22,132 nt of DNA from a virus: positions 1 through 22,132 of IMG/VR virus record IMGVR_UViG_3300010379_001312; one strand, written 5' to 3'. How positions within the stretch are numbered: the stretch's first letter is position 1; every line of letters begins with the position of its first letter. Positions 8,651 through 21,296 of the stretch are shown here, piece by piece. The notes under the pieces were generated by a model. It was not told the origin of the DNA. It did not search any database and saw only the letters and a program-made list of their open reading frames with translations. The translations under genes and the position numbers were made by a program.

Positions 8651-8800
8651 ATGGAAATGCATTTGGTCGTTGTAAGACCGTTTAGCGGTTTATCACGCGG
8701 TGACGTAATTATAGATTCCGTGCGCATCACCAGCATCCTCAGCGGTGAGCACGCCCATTTTGTTGTGCGGGTGGCCGCGCGGATGCCGGGAGGGGCTTGA
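8651..8800 (+). CDS. small conserved-looking protein before the sheath gene
   Basis: A 49-codon gene starting MEMHLVVVRPFSGLSRGDVI, with SILSGEHAHFVVRVAA near its end. GGAG sits seven bases before the ATG, the codons follow the purine-first pattern, and it fills the gap between two genes exactly, stopping five bases before the sheath ATG. Residues PFSG, RGDVI and EHAHFVVRV look like a compact beta protein under selection, of the kind found before the sheath gene in contractile-tail prophages. Its function is unknown; a tail-joining or sheath-initiating accessory role is possible. Confidence 0.65.
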   Translation: MEMHLVVVRPFSGLSRGDVIIDSVRITSILSGEHAHFVVRVAARMPGGA

Positions 8801-8805
8801 TAGCA

Positions 8806-10368
8806 ATGCCGATCGTTCAACAGGGCAGCATCAACACGACGGCACTTGTGGTGCCGGACCTCTACGTCCAGATAGTGCCACCGCAGAACCTCGTCCTCAA
8901 CGGCGTCCCGACCAATGTTGTTGGTGTTGTCGGTACCGCGTCCTGGGGACCGGTTGCACAGCCCGTCGTCGTCGCAACTATGGCAGATTATGCGCAGGCC
9001 TTCGGTCCGATTATCGCCCGGAAATATGATATGGGAACCCAAATCGCTACAGCGGTTCAACAGGGAGCTCAGAATTTCCGTTGTGTTCGCGTCAGCGATG
9101 GAACCGACACGGCGGCGCAGGTGGTTGTCCCCGGGACGACCGCTGCCTTTACAGCACTCTACACGGGCTCCCTGGGCAATAACGTCAGCCTGACGCTGCA
9201 ACCCGGTTCCGCACCGAGCACCTGGCGATTGATAGCGGCGCTGCCCGGATTGCAGCCTGAGGTCTATGACAATATCGGCGGCACCGGGTCGGCGTTCTGG
9301 ATCGCCCTCGCGGCAGCAGTAAACCAGGGCCAAGGTCCGCAGAGTGGACCGTCTCAGCTTGTGATCGCCAGCTCCGGCGGTGCCACCGTACCTCCGGTGG
9401 CCTTCGCTACGACACTTGGTGCTAGTACACCGGGGTCCGATGGGGCATCCGGTGTTGCATCCGCGCAATTGGCCGGCACGGACATTCCTCCCCGCACCGG
9501 AATGTACGCCCTGACAGGCCAGGGCTGTGGTATCGCCGTTCTGGCCGACTCGGATGATCCGGCTCAATGGACGACTCAGGTGGCGTTCGGCCTCCAGGAG
9601 GGCGTCTATATGATCCTGACGGGCCCGGCCGGCGACACAATCCAGAACGCGGTCGCTGTTAAGCAGCAGGCCGGGCTCGACAGCTATTCTGGAAAGCTGA
9701 TGTTCGGGGACTGGTTATGGTGGTCCGACCAGGTAAATAGCACGATCCGGTTGGTTTCTCCGCAAGGGTTTGTTGCTGGCCGGCTCGCAAACCTGTCGCC
9801 TGAGCAATCGAGTCTAAACAAGCAGATTTATTGCGTAATCGGTAGCCAGATGTCCGGGACACCAGGATCTGGTCAAAGCACATCCTACTCCGCAGCGGAT
9901 CTGGCGGTCTTGTTCGGTGCGGGGATCGACGTGATATGCAACCCGCAGCCTGGCGGCAGCTACTGGGGGGTCCGCGGGGGTTTCAACTCTTCGTCTAATC
10001 CAGCTATTGACGGTGACAATTATACACGCCTCACAAACTACATCGCTGCTACCCTCGCTGCGGGAATGGGTCAATATGTAGGGCAAGTCATCAACGCCAA
10101 CCTGTTCCGCAGTATTCGCTCCTGCCAGCTCTCGTTCCTACAAAACATGCTCAGCCAAGGTTTGCTTGGCAGCACCGACGGAAATCTGCCATTCAGCGTT
10201 ATTTGCGATACATCGAACAACCCGGCGAGTAGAACTGGCCTCGGCTACGTCCAGTCGGACGCGCAGGTGCAATACCAGTCAATCAACGAAAAATTCATCG
10301 TCAACGTGGAAGGAGGGCAAACAGTCCAGGTGTCCGTCCAAACCCTTCCCCGCGGGCAAACGACCTAA
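8806..10368 (+). CDS. contractile tail sheath protein
   Basis: The subunit of the contractile sheath that drives the tube through the host envelope. At 520 residues the protein has the usual layout: an N-terminal strand that links subunits (PDLYVQIVPPQNLVLNGVPTN), VVGVVGTASWGPV as the first conserved block, a variable beta-rich outer domain (about 110-240), and the conserved C-terminal domain (NYTRLTNYIAATLAAGMG, then FLQNMLSQGLLG) ending in beta strands with the last linker strand QVSVQTLPRG. I take ATG 8806 (GGGAGGGG upstream) rather than TTG 8797. The tube gene follows 12 bases later, the universal order for contractile tails. Confidence 0.92.
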   Translation: MPIVQQGSINTTALVVPDLYVQIVPPQNLVLNGVPTNVVGVVGTASWGPVAQPVVVATMADYAQAFGPIIARKYDMGTQIATAVQQGAQNFRCVRVSDGTDTAAQVVVPGTTAAFTALYTGSLGNNVSLTLQPGSAPSTWRLIAALPGLQPEVYDNIGGTGSAFWIALAAAVNQGQGPQSGPSQLVIASSGGATVPPVAFATTLGASTPGSDGASGVASAQLAGTDIPPRTGMYALTGQGCGIAVLADSDDPAQWTTQVAFGLQEGVYMILTGPAGDTIQNAVAVKQQAGLDSYSGKLMFGDWLWWSDQVNSTIRLVSPQGFVAGRLANLSPEQSSLNKQIYCVIGSQMSGTPGSGQSTSYSAADLAVLFGAGIDVICNPQPGGSYWGVRGGFNSSSNPAIDGDNYTRLTNYIAATLAAGMGQYVGQVINANLFRSIRSCQLSFLQNMLSQGLLGSTDGNLPFSVICDTSNNPASRTGLGYVQSDAQVQYQSINEKFIVNVEGGQTVQVSVQTLPRGQTT

Positions 10369-10380
10369 CGAGGTATTCTT

Positions 10381-10809
10381 ATGTCATTTACAGCCTTCTC
10401 TGTTGGTCGCGACACTCAGCTTGTCGTCATGGGGCCGAATGGTCGCGTGGACCTGGAGCATGTTACCGCCTTCGAAAGCCGGCAGCTAACTCAATCGATA
10501 CGCGTCAGCCGGTTGGACGGAACCCAGTTAGGCACTGAACTGCCGAAGGGCTGGGAGGGCAGCTTTGAGCTCGAGCGTGGCAATTCGGTAGTAGATGATT
10601 TCATTGCTGCAACCGAGCAGACATACTTTAATGGTGGGAGCGCGAGCTCGATCACTATGTACCAGTACATTAATGAGACGGACGGGTCAACTTCGACATA
10701 TCAGTATGCAGGCGTCACGTTCAAGCTTGTCAACGCTGGGGTCTGGAAGGGCGAAAGCAGTGTCAAGCAAAAGCTCGAATTTTTTGGCGTCAGTAGGAGT
10801 CGGATCTAA
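10381..10809 (+). CDS. tail tube protein
   Basis: The hexameric ring protein that forms the inner tube, 142 residues, the usual size for contractile-tail tubes. The beta-sandwich pattern is clear: SFTAFSVGRDTQLVVMGPNG at the N-terminus, DLEHVTAFESRQLTQSIRVSRLDG, WEGSFELERGNSVVDDFIA with the single helix, and strands TSTYQYAGVTFKLVNAG and KQKLEFFGVSRSRI. It has GAGG at -10 and lies directly after the sheath gene. Its TAA overlaps the chaperone ATG at 10809. Confidence 0.88.
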   Translation: MSFTAFSVGRDTQLVVMGPNGRVDLEHVTAFESRQLTQSIRVSRLDGTQLGTELPKGWEGSFELERGNSVVDDFIAATEQTYFNGGSASSITMYQYINETDGSTSTYQYAGVTFKLVNAGVWKGESSVKQKLEFFGVSRSRI

Positions 10810-11174
10810 TGACCCCCTCCGCAAAGATTATCGCTCAGGCGAGCGATGCACCCTCGGTTGTAGACGGTTTGGGTCGGCGGCTCACACTCCGGCGTTTGAC
10901 GGCATTGGATAAGATGCGGCTATTTAAAGCGGCTGGCCCCGAGCTCGCTCTTAATCAGTCCTGGCTAGCGATGGCAATCCTGGCAAGTTCGGCGATTGCT
11001 ATAGATGACATACCGATACCGTCGCCATCCACCGAGAGCCAAATAGAGACGCTAGTCGGTCGGCTAGGTGACAGCGGAATTGAGGCAATCGCTCGGGCTT
11101 TGGAGTCACAGTCCGACGCCGATGAGGTTGAGCAGGTGACAAACGCGGGAAACTGGTCCGGCACTCCGAGCTGA
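10809..11174 (+). CDS. tail assembly chaperone, short (zero-frame) product
   Basis: A 121-residue protein that would coat the tape measure during tail assembly, like lambda gpG or P2 gpE. It is largely helical and acidic (LRRLTALDKMRLFKAAGPELALNQSWL, then LGDSGIEAIARALESQSDADEVEQV). The family normally makes two products from one start by -1 frameshifting near the end of the first frame. Here the slippery heptamer GGGAAAC lies six codons before the stop. Ribosomes that slip would make a 172-residue fusion ending at 11326. The gene starts inside the tube gene's stop codon. Confidence 0.85.
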   Translation: MTPSAKIIAQASDAPSVVDGLGRRLTLRRLTALDKMRLFKAAGPELALNQSWLAMAILASSAIAIDDIPIPSPSTESQIETLVGRLGDSGIEAIARALESQSDADEVEQVTNAGNWSGTPS

Positions 11175-11326
11175 TCGACTGTCTATACTTGGTCAGAAAC
11201 GGAGTGCCGTTCGACGTCGCCTTTTCGTTGCCGCCGGACGAACGTATGGCGTACTTGGTCGCATTCGGCATCTTGGACGGCCGAGAGTTCGATTGGGAAA
11301 CACTGCAGTGGAGGTACCCAGTATGA
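11132..11326 (+). CDS. -1-frame extension of the tail assembly chaperone
   Basis: This frame is open from 11132 to the TGA at 11324-11326 and has no start or ribosome-binding site of its own. It reads LVRHSELIDCLYLVRNGVPF, then DVAFSLPPDERMAYLVAFGI and LDGREFDWETLQWRYPV, a strongly protein-like sequence with a pattern (hydrophobic helix, DDR-like acidic turn, FDW near the end) typical of the T half of chaperone pairs. A -1 slip at 11147-11153 joins it to the upstream product after residue 115 and adds 57 residues. Its TGA overlaps an ATG at 11323. In known systems the extended form recruits tube subunits to the tape measure. Confidence 0.82.
   Translation, partial: AGDKRGKLVRHSELIDCLYLVRNGVPFDVAFSLPPDERMAYLVAFGILDGREFDWETLQWRYPV
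11147..11209 (+). promoter_or_regulatory. -1 programmed ribosomal frameshift signal
   Basis: The heptamer GGGAAAC (11147-11153) sits in the zero frame as G GGA AAC, the canonical X XXY YYZ arrangement, so both tRNAs can re-pair after slipping to GGG AAA. Five bases later begins a perfect 10-base-pair stem, CGGCACTCCG (11159-11168) with CGGAGTGCCG (11200-11209). Inside the loop a second stem, CTGATC (11171-11176) with GGTCAG (11191-11196), forms with one G-U pair. Slippery site, spacer length and stable hairpin are the three known parts of such signals, and the two flanking frames encode the two halves of a chaperone pair. Confidence 0.88.
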
Positions 11327-11364
11327 CGCTGCACTCTCTAGCGCATTGCTGATAATATCGTACG

Positions 11365-12333
11365 ATGATTGACACGTCCATGCTTAACCTGGTGCCGGTC
11401 CGTAATGGTAATGCCGTCAGGCAGATGATCGCGACGCGGCGTCTTCTTGATACATTTGACCGAGTAGTTAATCAGTCATCCATCCAATTGACGAGACTGC
11501 TGCGGATCGCCAAAGGTGCCTTTACTTTCAATGTCAGCCGACTATCGTGGACTAGGCGGATTGCTACGGCACGCCGAACGCACTTAGCGACGCGTACAGT
11601 AAATGTTACGCAGCCACCGCCGCTCCACGCGCCGCGCCGGTACCCTCCGAAGCCGGCTTTCTCAGACACCTTCTACCGGCCGGCGGTATCAGTACCGGTT
11701 CAAATACCGCTGCCGATCTTGTCGTCAATTGCGTCGCTGCTATTCAAGCCGCCCACTATGCCAAGCAGCTATATCCCGACCAGATCGCGTCAGATAAGCA
11801 GGCGCGGCGGCCGTCGGGCTGGCGCCGCCACAGTCTCGTATTTCCAACCCAACCAAACTCGCGGGGCGCGATCCATCTCGCTGACAGCCCATACACAACA
11901 CCTTGCATCATGGGTCGCGGATTTCTCTCCGACCTATGGAAGACTTCCACCCCCGCATGAGAAGCGGCGTGCACCAAAACCCGAGCATGGCCCTCGTGTC
12001 ACCGCCTCTAGCTATTACAGCGCTGGTCACCAGACATCTGACGCCATGATCAAGCTCGCGAAGACTCCCGCGGGTGCAGTCTCTATCGCGCCGCCATCCC
12101 GGACAACAGCGGCTTCCTGGGCAAGTACAGCACCAGACGAAGCCCATCCTTCTCCTAGCAGCACCGGGACAGGGACCAAATCGGGACAGGGCGAGCTCGT
12201 CTTGGAAGGTTCCACGCTTGGTCGCTGGCTGACCCAGCACCTGAGCCAAGCAATCATCCGTCCCCTAACCGGGATGATAGGTGTCGACCCGCGTATCACA
12301 CCAGCGTGGGCCGGACCGTCCTTCGGAACATAG
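11365..12333 (+). CDS. tape-measure-position ORF, reading frame doubtful in the middle
   Basis: The only long uninterrupted frame (322 codons) between the chaperone and the hub genes, where the tape measure should be. The first 60 residues (RRLLDTFDRVVNQSSIQLTR) and the last 95 (from MIKLAKTPAG to LGRWLTQHLSQ and DPRITPAWAGPSFGT) look genuine. The middle, about residues 65-205, is Arg/Pro/Ser-rich with hardly any acidic residues, the look of a shadow frame. Another frame over 11556-11960 is more protein-like there. There is no Shine-Dalgarno before 11365. A 9-codon ORF starting in the chaperone stop (11323) ends 12 bases upstream, so reinitiation is possible. An alternative last gene would start at ATG 12046. 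It may be a very short tape measure, or a set of small overlapping or decayed genes. Confidence 0.45.
   Translation: MIDTSMLNLVPVRNGNAVRQMIATRRLLDTFDRVVNQSSIQLTRLLRIAKGAFTFNVSRLSWTRRIATARRTHLATRTVNVTQPPPLHAPRRYPPKPAFSDTFYRPAVSVPVQIPLPILSSIASLLFKPPTMPSSYIPTRSRQISRRGGRRAGAATVSYFQPNQTRGARSISLTAHTQHLASWVADFSPTYGRLPPPHEKRRAPKPEHGPRVTASSYYSAGHQTSDAMIKLAKTPAGAVSIAPPSRTTAASWASTAPDEAHPSPSSTGTGTKSGQGELVLEGSTLGRWLTQHLSQAIIRPLTGMIGVDPRITPAWAGPSFGT
11556..11960 (+). other. hidden open frame with coding character inside the tape-measure region
   Basis: This frame is open for 134 codons but has no usable start, so it escapes ORF finding. It reads ALSDAYSKCYAATAAP, then AADLVVNCVAAIQAAHYAKQ and later GRGFLSDLWKTSTPA before TGA. 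Codons are strongly of the purine-N-pyrimidine type (GCT GCC GAT CTT GTC GTC AAT), and acidic and basic residues are better balanced than in the overlapping 322-codon frame. A third frame with ATG 11531 (MSADYRGLGGLLRHAERT) runs into it and stops at 11587, so a +1 shift between the two would give one protein of about 140 residues. Either a frameshifted gene or chance. Confidence 0.35.
11957..12049 (+). CDS. possible 30-codon gene linked by ATGA junctions
   Basis: The ATG at 11957 overlaps the TGA of the hidden frame (ATGA). The product begins MRSGVHQNPSMALVSPPLA and continues through ITALVTRHLTP. Its own TGA at 12047 overlaps an ATG at 12046 in the frame that runs to 12333 (again ATGA). Two successive four-base overlaps are the hallmark of coupled phage genes, but the peptide is short and could be chance. 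It may instead be a fragment of one longer ancestral protein broken by indels. Confidence 0.25.
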   Translation: MRSGVHQNPSMALVSPPLAITALVTRHLTP

Positions 12334-18741: not shown

Positions 18742-19722
18742 ATGTCCGTCCAGGAACAAATTGAGTCTTTCGAATTGGTCAGCAACTCCCTCTTGAGCTC
18801 ATCGAATCTGTTGCCATTTTGCGCCCCCTGCATGCAAACTAGGGGCACGACATGTGGACCAAGGAGAACCGCCGCCGCTATGGTCGCAGCGGGCTGCGCT
18901 ACGAGACCGACCTGAATGACGACGCTTGAGCGCCAAAGGCGATCAACGCGGAGATCGCACCCTTCATTCTGCCTGCCAAGCTGGGGGGGCAACAAGCATT
19001 CGGTCAACCTGCGCGAGGTCGTCAACGGAATGACGTATATCTTGGGCACCGGCTGCCAGTGGCGTGCGATCCCAAAGGACCTGGCAGCACGTAGCACCAT
19101 ATATGACTACTTTGACCGTTGGAGCTGGGACGGGACGTTGCAGCCCATCCACCACGCACGCTACGTCAAATGCCGGGAGGAATCGTCACGCGAGGCCAGT
19201 CAAACGGTAGCGATTATAGACGCCCAAAGCGTCAAGAGCGCCGCACAGGGCGGCGGCCACATCGATCCGCATGAGTATGATAGGGGCAAGAAGATCAAAG
19301 GCAAGAAGCGGCACGTTCTGGTCGACACGCAAGGCCTGGTCCTGTAGGCCATCGTGACTGCCGCCGACATCCAGGATCGCGACGGCGGGCGTGGCGGCTG
19401 GGCACTTTATTCGGTCTCTACTCCTTTCTGCTGAAGCTCTACGCCGACGGCGGCTATAGGGGCCCGAGTCCCGTAAGTCCCTCAAAGCCATGCTGTCAGA
19501 GGTTCAGGTGGAGATCGTCAAGCGTTCCGATCGGGTCAAAGGCTTCGTGGTGCCCAGATGCTGGGTGGTCGAGCGAACACTCGCCCGGCTGAATCGCTGC
19601 CGCCGCTTGAGCAAGGACTGGGAGAAACTCAATCACAAAGCGCGGGCTTTTCTGCTTATGGCGTCCATACGCCTCATGATCAGGAGGTTATGTCGGAGCT
19701 AGCCATGTGGCCGGACAGACTC
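18742..19722 (+). mobile_element. decayed IS5-family insertion sequence (IS copy 1)
   Basis: The left end reads ATGTCCGTCCAGGAAC and the right end, on the other strand, GAGTCTGTCCGGCCAC, imperfect copies of the termini of the second IS in this window. The bases outside are TGA on the left and CGA on the right, compatible with a TNA target duplication that has since changed by one base. The element is about 981 bp, separates the fibre genes from the adaptor-like gene, and carries only a broken transposase. It is too decayed to move on its own. Confidence 0.75.
18852..19702 (+). pseudogene. IS5-family transposase pseudogene (copy 1)
   Basis: The start MWTKENRRRYGRSGLRY is followed by TGA at codon 26 (18927-18929). 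A run of seven G (18983-18989) shifts the frame. Reading resumes as VNGMTYILGTGCQWRAIPKD and on through AIIDAQSVKSAAQGG (first catalytic Asp) and KKIKGKKRHVLVD to a TAG at 19345. After further frame damage the end reads [20 protein letters not shown], with the catalytic Glu. At least four lesions make it non-functional. About two-thirds of residues match the copy-2 transposase by eye, so this is a related but distinct element. Confidence 0.8.
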
Positions 19723-20329: not shown

Positions 20330-21296
20330 GTGTCCGTCCGGGAACTTTGCGAGTCTTTAGAGTCGGTTACGGGGTGGAGGCTTGAACCCATTGAATCCAC
20401 TGTGGTTTGCTTGGCGTCACCGATTCGCAAGGTGCCGCATGTGGACCACAGAGAACCGCCCCCGCTACGACCGGGGCAAGCTTCGCTACCCGAGTGACCT
20501 GACCGACGCCGAGTGAGCACAGATCGAGCCGTTGATCCCGCCCGCCAAGCGGGGAGGCCGCGGGCGCGAAGTCGTCGTGCGACAGATCCTCAACGGCATC
20601 ATGTATGTGCTGAGCACGGCCTGCCAGTGGCGATACACCCCGAAGGATCTGCCGCCGAGGAGCACACTGCACGACTACTTTCAGCGCTGGGGTCATGATG
20701 GGACACTGACGAGCATCCACTATGCACTTTACGTGAAATGCCGAGAGCAAACGAACCGGTCAGCCAGCCCAACAGCCGGTATCATCGACAGCCAGAGCGT
20801 CAAAAGTGCCGAAAAAGGCGGTCGCCGCGTCGATCCACACGGGTATGATGCCGGCAAGAAGATCAAGGGCAAAAAGCGGCATATCGTGGTTGATGCCGAG
20901 GGCCTGCTGGTGCACGCGGTCGTTCATACGGCCGACATCCAGGACCGGGACGGCGGCGTGCTGGCCCTCTCGTCCATGCCGGACCATTGCGCTCACCTGA
21001 AGGTGCTGTTCGCCGATGGCGGCTATCAAGGGCCGAAATTCCGCACGGCGGCGGCAGAGATATTGCCGCAGCTCGCCGTCCAGATCGTCAAGCGCTCGGA
21101 CCAAGGCAAAGGCTTCGTGGTCCTGCCTCGGCGCTGGGTTGTCGAGCGCTCCATCGCGTGGCTGAACCGATGCCGGCGCCTGGCCAAGGATTTCGAGAAC
21201 CTGACCCGCAACGCACTGGCGTTCGTTATGCTGGCGTCGATCCGGCTCATGCTGAGGAAGCTGTGTAATTCAGCGTAAGACTTCCCGGACAGACTC
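20330..21296 (+). mobile_element. IS5-family (IS1031-type) insertion sequence, copy 2
   Basis: A 967-bp element flanked by TTA on both sides (20327-20329 and 21297-21299), the TNA-type target duplication of the IS1031 group. The terminal inverted repeats match at 13 of 16 positions: left GTGTCCGTCCGGGAAC, right (other strand) GAGTCTGTCCGGGAAG. Intact ends and duplication indicate a fairly recent insertion. It holds one transposase gene with a single in-frame TGA. It landed just beyond the fibre-tail adaptor-like gene and immediately before the third element. Confidence 0.88.
20439..21278 (+). pseudogene. IS5-family transposase with one in-frame TGA (copy 2)
   Basis: The natural start MWTTENRPRYDRGKLRYPSD is followed at codon 26 by TGA (20514-20516), where relatives have Trp (DAEW). 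After the stop, the same frame is intact for the rest of the protein: RGREVVVRQILNGIMYVLST, ACQWRYTPKD, GIIDSQSVKSAEKGG (Asp 1), FADGGYQG (Asp 2) and WVVERSIAWLNRCRRLAKDF (Glu, with the Y-R-K type signature). The DDE triad is complete. Without readthrough or internal initiation (first in-frame option TTG at 20532), only a 25-residue peptide would be made. Confidence 0.82.

Follow-up and report, generated by a model that had tools for sequence, protein, structure and literature searches.

Introduction

In phage lambda, gpG and gpGT are reportedly produced by a programmed -1 frameshift, said to have been described by Levin in 1993 and by Xu in 2004 and 2013, and the G/GT-type tail assembly chaperone with -1 frameshifting was reportedly set out as a class by Xu, Hendrix and Duda in 2004. 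The lambda slip site, G_GGA_AAG, ends in G, whereas the slip site of the locus described here ends in C. The -1 slip in the tail chaperones of long-tailed phages has been reviewed (PMC5009743). In the lambda system, binding to the tape measure protein is the task of the G part and recruitment of the tube subunit that of the T part, with the two products made at about 30:1 (PMC5009743). The heptamer GGGAAAC is used in the haloarchaeal virus HCTV-1 (PMC5009743), and the chaperone genes that precede the tape measure gene in the Caulobacter phages Colossus and phiCbK carry GGGAAAC and AAAAAAC, respectively (PMC3556154).

The window analyzed here was the whole 22,132-base IMG/VR virus record IMGVR_UViG_3300010379_001312, a contractile-tail prophage of an acetic-acid-type bacterium. 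It was examined for the elements of such a slip, and the locus was compared with its relatives in other genomes and with the described systems. Coordinates are those of the window, and the features lie on the plus strand unless stated otherwise.

Results and Discussion

Tail genes of the window and identity of the chaperone

The window contained terminase and SPP1-like portal genes and a run of tail genes in the order sheath, tube candidate, chaperone, conserved 322-aa ORF and baseplate genes. The tail sheath gene (8797-10368) matched phrog_23, tail sheath, with an E value of 1.2e-48. The tail tube candidate of 142 aa (10381-10809) matched phrog_12993, a family of unknown function, and was recognized by its position between the sheath and the chaperone. 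The chaperone gene (10809-11174, 121 aa) is located between the tube gene and the tape measure gene, both of these neighbors being candidates assigned by position. The 322-aa ORF (11365-12333) is a tape measure candidate by position alone, with no family match in the family searches, and an ORF of about 250-430 aa was found directly after the chaperone in most of the relatives checked. At 1.5 Å per residue, the 322 aa of the tape measure candidate correspond to about 48 nm, which is very short; its last 47 residues were 51-62% identical in many relatives, and the remainder was poorly conserved. Two IS4/IS5-family transposase genes were located 3' of the tail genes, of which the one at 18916-19702 seemed to be split into two ORFs and the other, at 20532-21278, was one longer ORF that may be intact. 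On the minus strand to the left of the terminase gene, positions 461-940 encoded a response-regulator-like receiver domain protein, which probably belongs to the host DNA or is an accessory gene of the prophage.

The 121-aa protein of the 0 frame matched phrog_20383 (unknown function) with an E value of 2.7e-15, and weak matches to phrog_508, tail assembly chaperone, were obtained for 10 of 25 relatives (best E 0.0017). Its AlphaFold model was good (pLDDT 84.8, pTM 0.71). The top Foldseek match of this model was an uncharacterised phage protein (E 1e-6), and the named tail assembly chaperones of phages Gemini and Finch, together with Mu FS-gp41, were found at E values of 0.008-0.03 with a probability of 0.99. 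No significant match was found by Foldseek in the PDB; in a further structure comparison against the PDB the best entry was 3klu (YqbN), whose top Z score of 4.0 was too low to be used. Alignment of the chaperone profile with lambda G, Mu gp41, and KL1 gp18 by HHalign gave nothing significant, and nothing convincing was returned for the chaperone by Pfam and NCBIfam or for either half by a sequence search of the PDB. The extension encoded in the -1 frame of the window matched no family, and the model of the extension alone was poor (pLDDT 57). The gene was identified as a tail assembly chaperone because of its position, the frameshift itself, and the weak similarity.

Slip site and -1 frame

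The heptamer G_GGA_AAC (11147-11153) was located near the end of the chaperone ORF in the correct 0-frame register. GGGAAAC occurred three times in the window against 2.35 expected, so the heptamer by itself was not significant. The 0-frame stop TGA (11172-11174) began 19 nt past the heptamer and sat inside the inner stem of the hairpin described below. In the -1 frame, a T-like extension (11153-11326) of 57 codons (11153-11323) was followed by the stop TGA at 11324-11326. No ATG, GTG, or TTG was present in this frame of the window between the last upstream stop and the conserved block. The sequence-only reading of this DNA had placed GGGAAAC in the right register and had described a 57-residue shifted frame without a start of its own, and both statements were confirmed. 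The predicted products are 121 aa (12.7 kDa) and 172 aa (18.8 kDa) in length. The locus combined the gene position, the XXXYYYZ heptamer in 0-frame register within the overlap, and the start-less -1 half of a G/GT-type chaperone.

Conservation of the heptamer

The first relatives were retrieved mostly with the neighboring tube protein and in a few cases with the 0-frame protein; the heptamer therefore played no part in their selection. In this first set, 104 distinct loci had the slip, 96 with GGGAAAC and 8 with AAAAAAC, and the same extension followed in all of them. The first-pass loci without a slip were incomplete, had been given a wrong start, or came from a single contig (L057/L190), in which a one-base deletion (GGGAAC) broke the join; this deletion is probably a sequencing error or a sign of decay. 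The total of 217 distinct sequences comprised the first set and the loci found via the extension, which itself begins at the slip site. In this total, a heptamer of the form XXXAAAZ was in register in 213 sequences (138 GGGAAAC, 71 AAAAAAC, 2 AAAAAAT, 1 AAAAAAG, and 1 GGGAAAT), and none was in register in the other 4. The three X bases switched from GGG to AAA as a unit among the relatives, which is what a slip site requires. Conservation of the extension in the relatives began exactly at the heptamer, and the register, the extension, and the stem recurred in more than 200 of them. Since the slip site and the hairpin were nearly unchanged in hundreds of relatives, the frameshift signal is almost certainly real.

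A Shine-Dalgarno (SD)-like stimulator upstream of the heptamer was not conserved, with any SD-like 4-mer at -18 to -3 present in 23 of 102 relatives. The window itself had AGGTGA 7 nt 5' of the heptamer, which was not kept in the family. A dnaX-type cassette, consisting of an SD-like stimulator about 10 nt upstream, A_AAA_AAG, and a hairpin, was considered and rejected on the same count of SD-like 4-mers.

The hairpin of the window

The hairpin (11159-11209) was formed by an outer stem of ten pairs (11159-11168/11200-11209) and a nested inner stem of six pairs (11171-11176/11191-11196), which two weak pairs extended to eight in the minimum free energy structure (11171-11178/11189-11196). Its free energy was -31.7 kcal/mol, with a z score of -2.86 against dinucleotide shuffles, one of 200 of which was as good. 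None of 2000 synonymous recodings of the -1 frame, drawn uniformly over synonymous codons rather than matched to host codon usage, reached the -28.3 kcal/mol of the native sequence (recodings: mean -12.0, sd 3.3). Within 10700-11700, no covariance model of Rfam matched at E ≤ 1. No pseudoknot or further helix was kept as well as the outer stem between -20 and +170, and the other candidate helices in this region overlapped the two stems or were weaker.

The sequence-only reading had described a ten-pair stem five bases after the heptamer, with a second stem of six pairs nested in it, as an unusually compact hairpin at the minimal spacer. The nested stem was recovered in the window fold, and the ten pairs and the spacer of 5 nt (11154-11158) were correct for the window but not for the family, in which the outermost pair (11159-11209) was formed in 54 of 104 sequences only. 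The third base of the P19 codon, which is the partner in this outermost pair, was used at near background frequency, so the conserved outer stem was set at 9 bp (11160-11168/11200-11208) and the spacer at 6 nt (11154-11159). The claim that so compact a hairpin and such a spacer are unusual was overstated and found no support.

Selection for pairing in the stems

The outer stem covers the codons for RHP in its 5' arm and for GVP in its 3' arm, and the third positions of one arm therefore pair with the first positions of the other. Codon choice at these positions was compared with codon use elsewhere in the same genes, with the residues of the extension numbered from 1. In the 3' arm, V18 was encoded by GTG in 104 of 104 sequences (34% in the background) and G17 by GGG in 97 of 104 (19%). 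In the 5' arm, R3 was encoded by CGG or AGG in 93 of 93 (39%), H4 by CAC in 100 of 103 (48%), and P5 by CCC or CCT in 96 of 97 (38%), and CCG, the commonest proline codon, was never used. Codons D21 and V22, just downstream of the stem, were near background like the third base of P19. The relative synonymous variability, computed on a set thinned to 87 sequences, was 0.35 in codons 3-5 and 0.10 in codons 17-18, compared with 0.97 in codons 20-53 and 0.93 in the tube gene, in which the lowest three-codon window was 0.56. Judged from these sequence comparisons, selection acts on the stem codons through pairing and not through the protein.

Covariation was also found. In the outer stem, 96.9% of the cells were paired, and two-sided changes, which fell in 4 pairs, numbered 19 against 2.4 expected from shuffles (89 diverse sequences). 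The covariation score of the two-tier structure was 0.149 compared with 0.110 after shuffling (0 of 500 shuffles as high), and structures slid along the alignment scored at most 0.061 (102 sequences). Such counts are inflated by relatedness among the sequences, and more weight is therefore given to the codon test and to the individual cases. Pair 7 was T-A in the group of the window, C-G in most relatives, and G-C in L080 and L087. The stem was rebuilt in L262 (GGACGCCG/CGGCGTCC) and in L253, and at pair 3 of L290 a C-G pair replaced G-C, with the loss of an otherwise invariant proline. The same kind of stem was shifted by one base in L243 and L294, where the amino acids were different, and L293 had an apparently different hairpin at about the same place. 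In L272 the hairpin folded no better than shuffles. The inner stem had a covariation score of 0.402 compared with 0.247 after shuffling, and since a slide of one base still scored 0.359, its register drifts between lineages. By these scores, the inner stem is also under selection, drifting in sequence and register.

The sequence-only reading had proposed an alignment of the locus in relatives. In this alignment GGGAAAC (or AAAAAAC) was kept in register and both stems covaried, which supports its reading of a -1 slip that joins the two halves of a tail assembly chaperone.

Proposed mechanism and alternative explanations

We assign a probability of about 0.95 to programmed -1 ribosomal frameshifting of the lambda G/GT type at G_GGA_AAC. 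The comparisons above demonstrated the sequence elements, their register, and the selection acting on the heptamer, the stem, and the extension. When ribosomes on the chaperone mRNA arrive at G_GGA_AAC, the base of a strong two-tier hairpin would lie 5-6 nt in front of them, and the hairpin would pause or strain them with GGA in the P site and AAC in the A site. Most of the ribosomes would go on and terminate at 11172 to give the 121-aa product. A minority would slip back by one base, with both tRNAs re-pairing (GGA to GGG and AAC to AAA), and would add the 57 residues to give the 172-aa product. If lambda is a guide, the 121-aa form would cover the tape measure protein, tube subunits would be brought in by the 172-aa form, and the two would be made in a fixed ratio; such a division of labor between the two products is the likeliest one. 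We infer the occurrence and the efficiency of the slip, as well as these roles, from the conserved elements and the likeness to lambda.

The extension could in principle be a separate protein, made by ribosomes that terminate at the 0-frame stop and restart on an overlapping CTG or a nearby TTG. The 0-frame stop immediately 3' of the heptamer in 152 of the 217 relatives, with overlaps such as CTGA, would suit such reinitiation, as would the three rare relatives that seem to use a separate start. However, there is no stop at this place in the remaining relatives, including the window with its stop 19 nt downstream, no start codon or SD sequence was conserved (SD-like 4-mers in 23 of 102), and reinitiation would require neither a stem nor an XXXAAAZ heptamer whose X bases change together from GGG to AAA. 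We consider this explanation very improbable. Still less probable is transcriptional slippage, in which RNA polymerase adds or drops a base in a run so that some mRNAs carry the fused frame. The AAAAAAC heptamer of about one third of the relatives (71 of 217) offers a run of six A, whereas the GGGAAAC of 138 relatives, including the window, has runs no longer than three, and a compensated RNA stem that keeps its distance 3' of the site is in keeping with ribosomes rather than with slippage of the polymerase.

The signal in the window might also be a relic of a decayed prophage from which the extension is no longer expressed. In favor of this, the record is fragmentary, IS4/IS5-family transposases lie downstream, and the heptamer is broken in one related contig (L057/L190); against this, both frames, the heptamer, and the stem were intact in the window, and the stem carried the compensated T-A pair, which makes decay about as improbable as reinitiation.

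Exceptional and distant relatives

The heptamer was absent from 4 of the 217 relatives, and three relatives in all looked like two-gene arrangements. L284 had no heptamer. In L258:1-1001 (= L324) and L285:1-1001, a -1 slip could not bring ribosomes into the frame of the downstream half, and GGAG was present seven bases 5' of an ATG for this half. In L335:1-2841, the two halves overlapped by ATGA. These three relatives were divergent and had no heptamer; from their sequences they look like two-gene replacements with a separately started C-terminal half, or alternatively they may use a +1 or -2 shift. The partial loss of the stem in L258 fits a stem that serves the slip. A downstream half encoded as a separate gene, the outcome that the sequence-only reading had named as speaking against it, was apparently the case in these three rare relatives only.

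More distant relatives, found in viral contigs, often had AAAAAAG, AAAAAAA, or AAAAAAC, and the stop followed at once or almost at once. Some of them, in small numbers, had an SD-like AAGG or AGGA upstream instead of the GGCACC stem, as if one had replaced the other. Among the distant relatives with A_AAA_AAG (L327, L340, L341, L349, L358, and similar ones), the SD-like AAGG or AGGA was found 6-7 nt upstream in 7 of 11 and the GGCACC stem in 0 of 11, which are small numbers. It is possible, and we put it forward tentatively as rather doubtful, that all these loci represent one order-wide frameshift cassette whose hairpin is kept more tightly than the encoded protein, that across the wider family slip codons ending in AAC are accompanied by strong stems and AAAAAAG by SD-like stimulators, and that a few lineages swapped the slip for two separately started genes. 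If so, the two-gene lineages would be a natural experiment on the fused T-like domain versus the ratio of the two parts.

Distribution and annotation

Of 397 genomes sampled from the order of Rhodopila, which we take to be the GTDB order Acetobacterales, 159 were matched by the profile of the extension. An intact relative is present in Rhodopila globiformis DSM 161 (L102). Across the class the profile matched in 2 of 385 sampled genomes, both of which were already in the order sample. Given the 159 genomes with the extension, many prophages of the order probably lack the extended chaperone in their annotation. The same arrangement, with the heptamer AAAAAAC, was found in the Komagataeibacter phage phiKX1 (L133:4429-4970, LC644975), in whose record the chaperone and the extension are two separate hypothetical genes, the second starting within the extension. 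No frameshift is mentioned in the paper that covers phiKX1 among temperate phages of acetic acid bacteria (PMC8566455), and within the literature searched, a targeted query turned up no description of this frameshift in phages of these bacteria. The results allow the annotation to be corrected, as PHROGs has the chaperone in an unnamed family only and Pfam and NCBIfam have it in none. The locus also provides a large, clean comparative data set on a bacterial -1 frameshift hairpin, together with a few natural two-gene replacements.

Comparison with known systems

The locus resembled lambda in that the gene was located between the major tail and tape measure genes, the heptamer of the -1 slip was close to the 3' end of the chaperone gene, and the slip would produce a C-terminal extension; however, lambda gpG and this chaperone had no significant sequence similarity. 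In gp18/gp19 of Burkholderia phage KL1, the same heptamer GGGAAAC directly precedes the 0-frame TGA (GCGGGAAACTGA), as in many of the relatives (PMC3483164), but KL1 is a siphovirus with a longer extension, and its chaperone was not detectably related. The heptamers of Colossus and phiCbK are the two main forms found here, although these phages are large siphoviruses. Phage Mu, with gp41/FS-gp41, shares the contractile tail and the same order of sheath, tube, chaperone, and tape measure genes, and the predicted fold of the chaperone was similar to that of FS-gp41 (Foldseek probability 0.99, E 0.026), whereas the shift in Mu is -2 according to the note in its record, and no significant sequence similarity was found. 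Every main feature of the locus thus has a precedent, and the frameshift is a well-known kind of phage mechanism, here with unusually strong comparative support.
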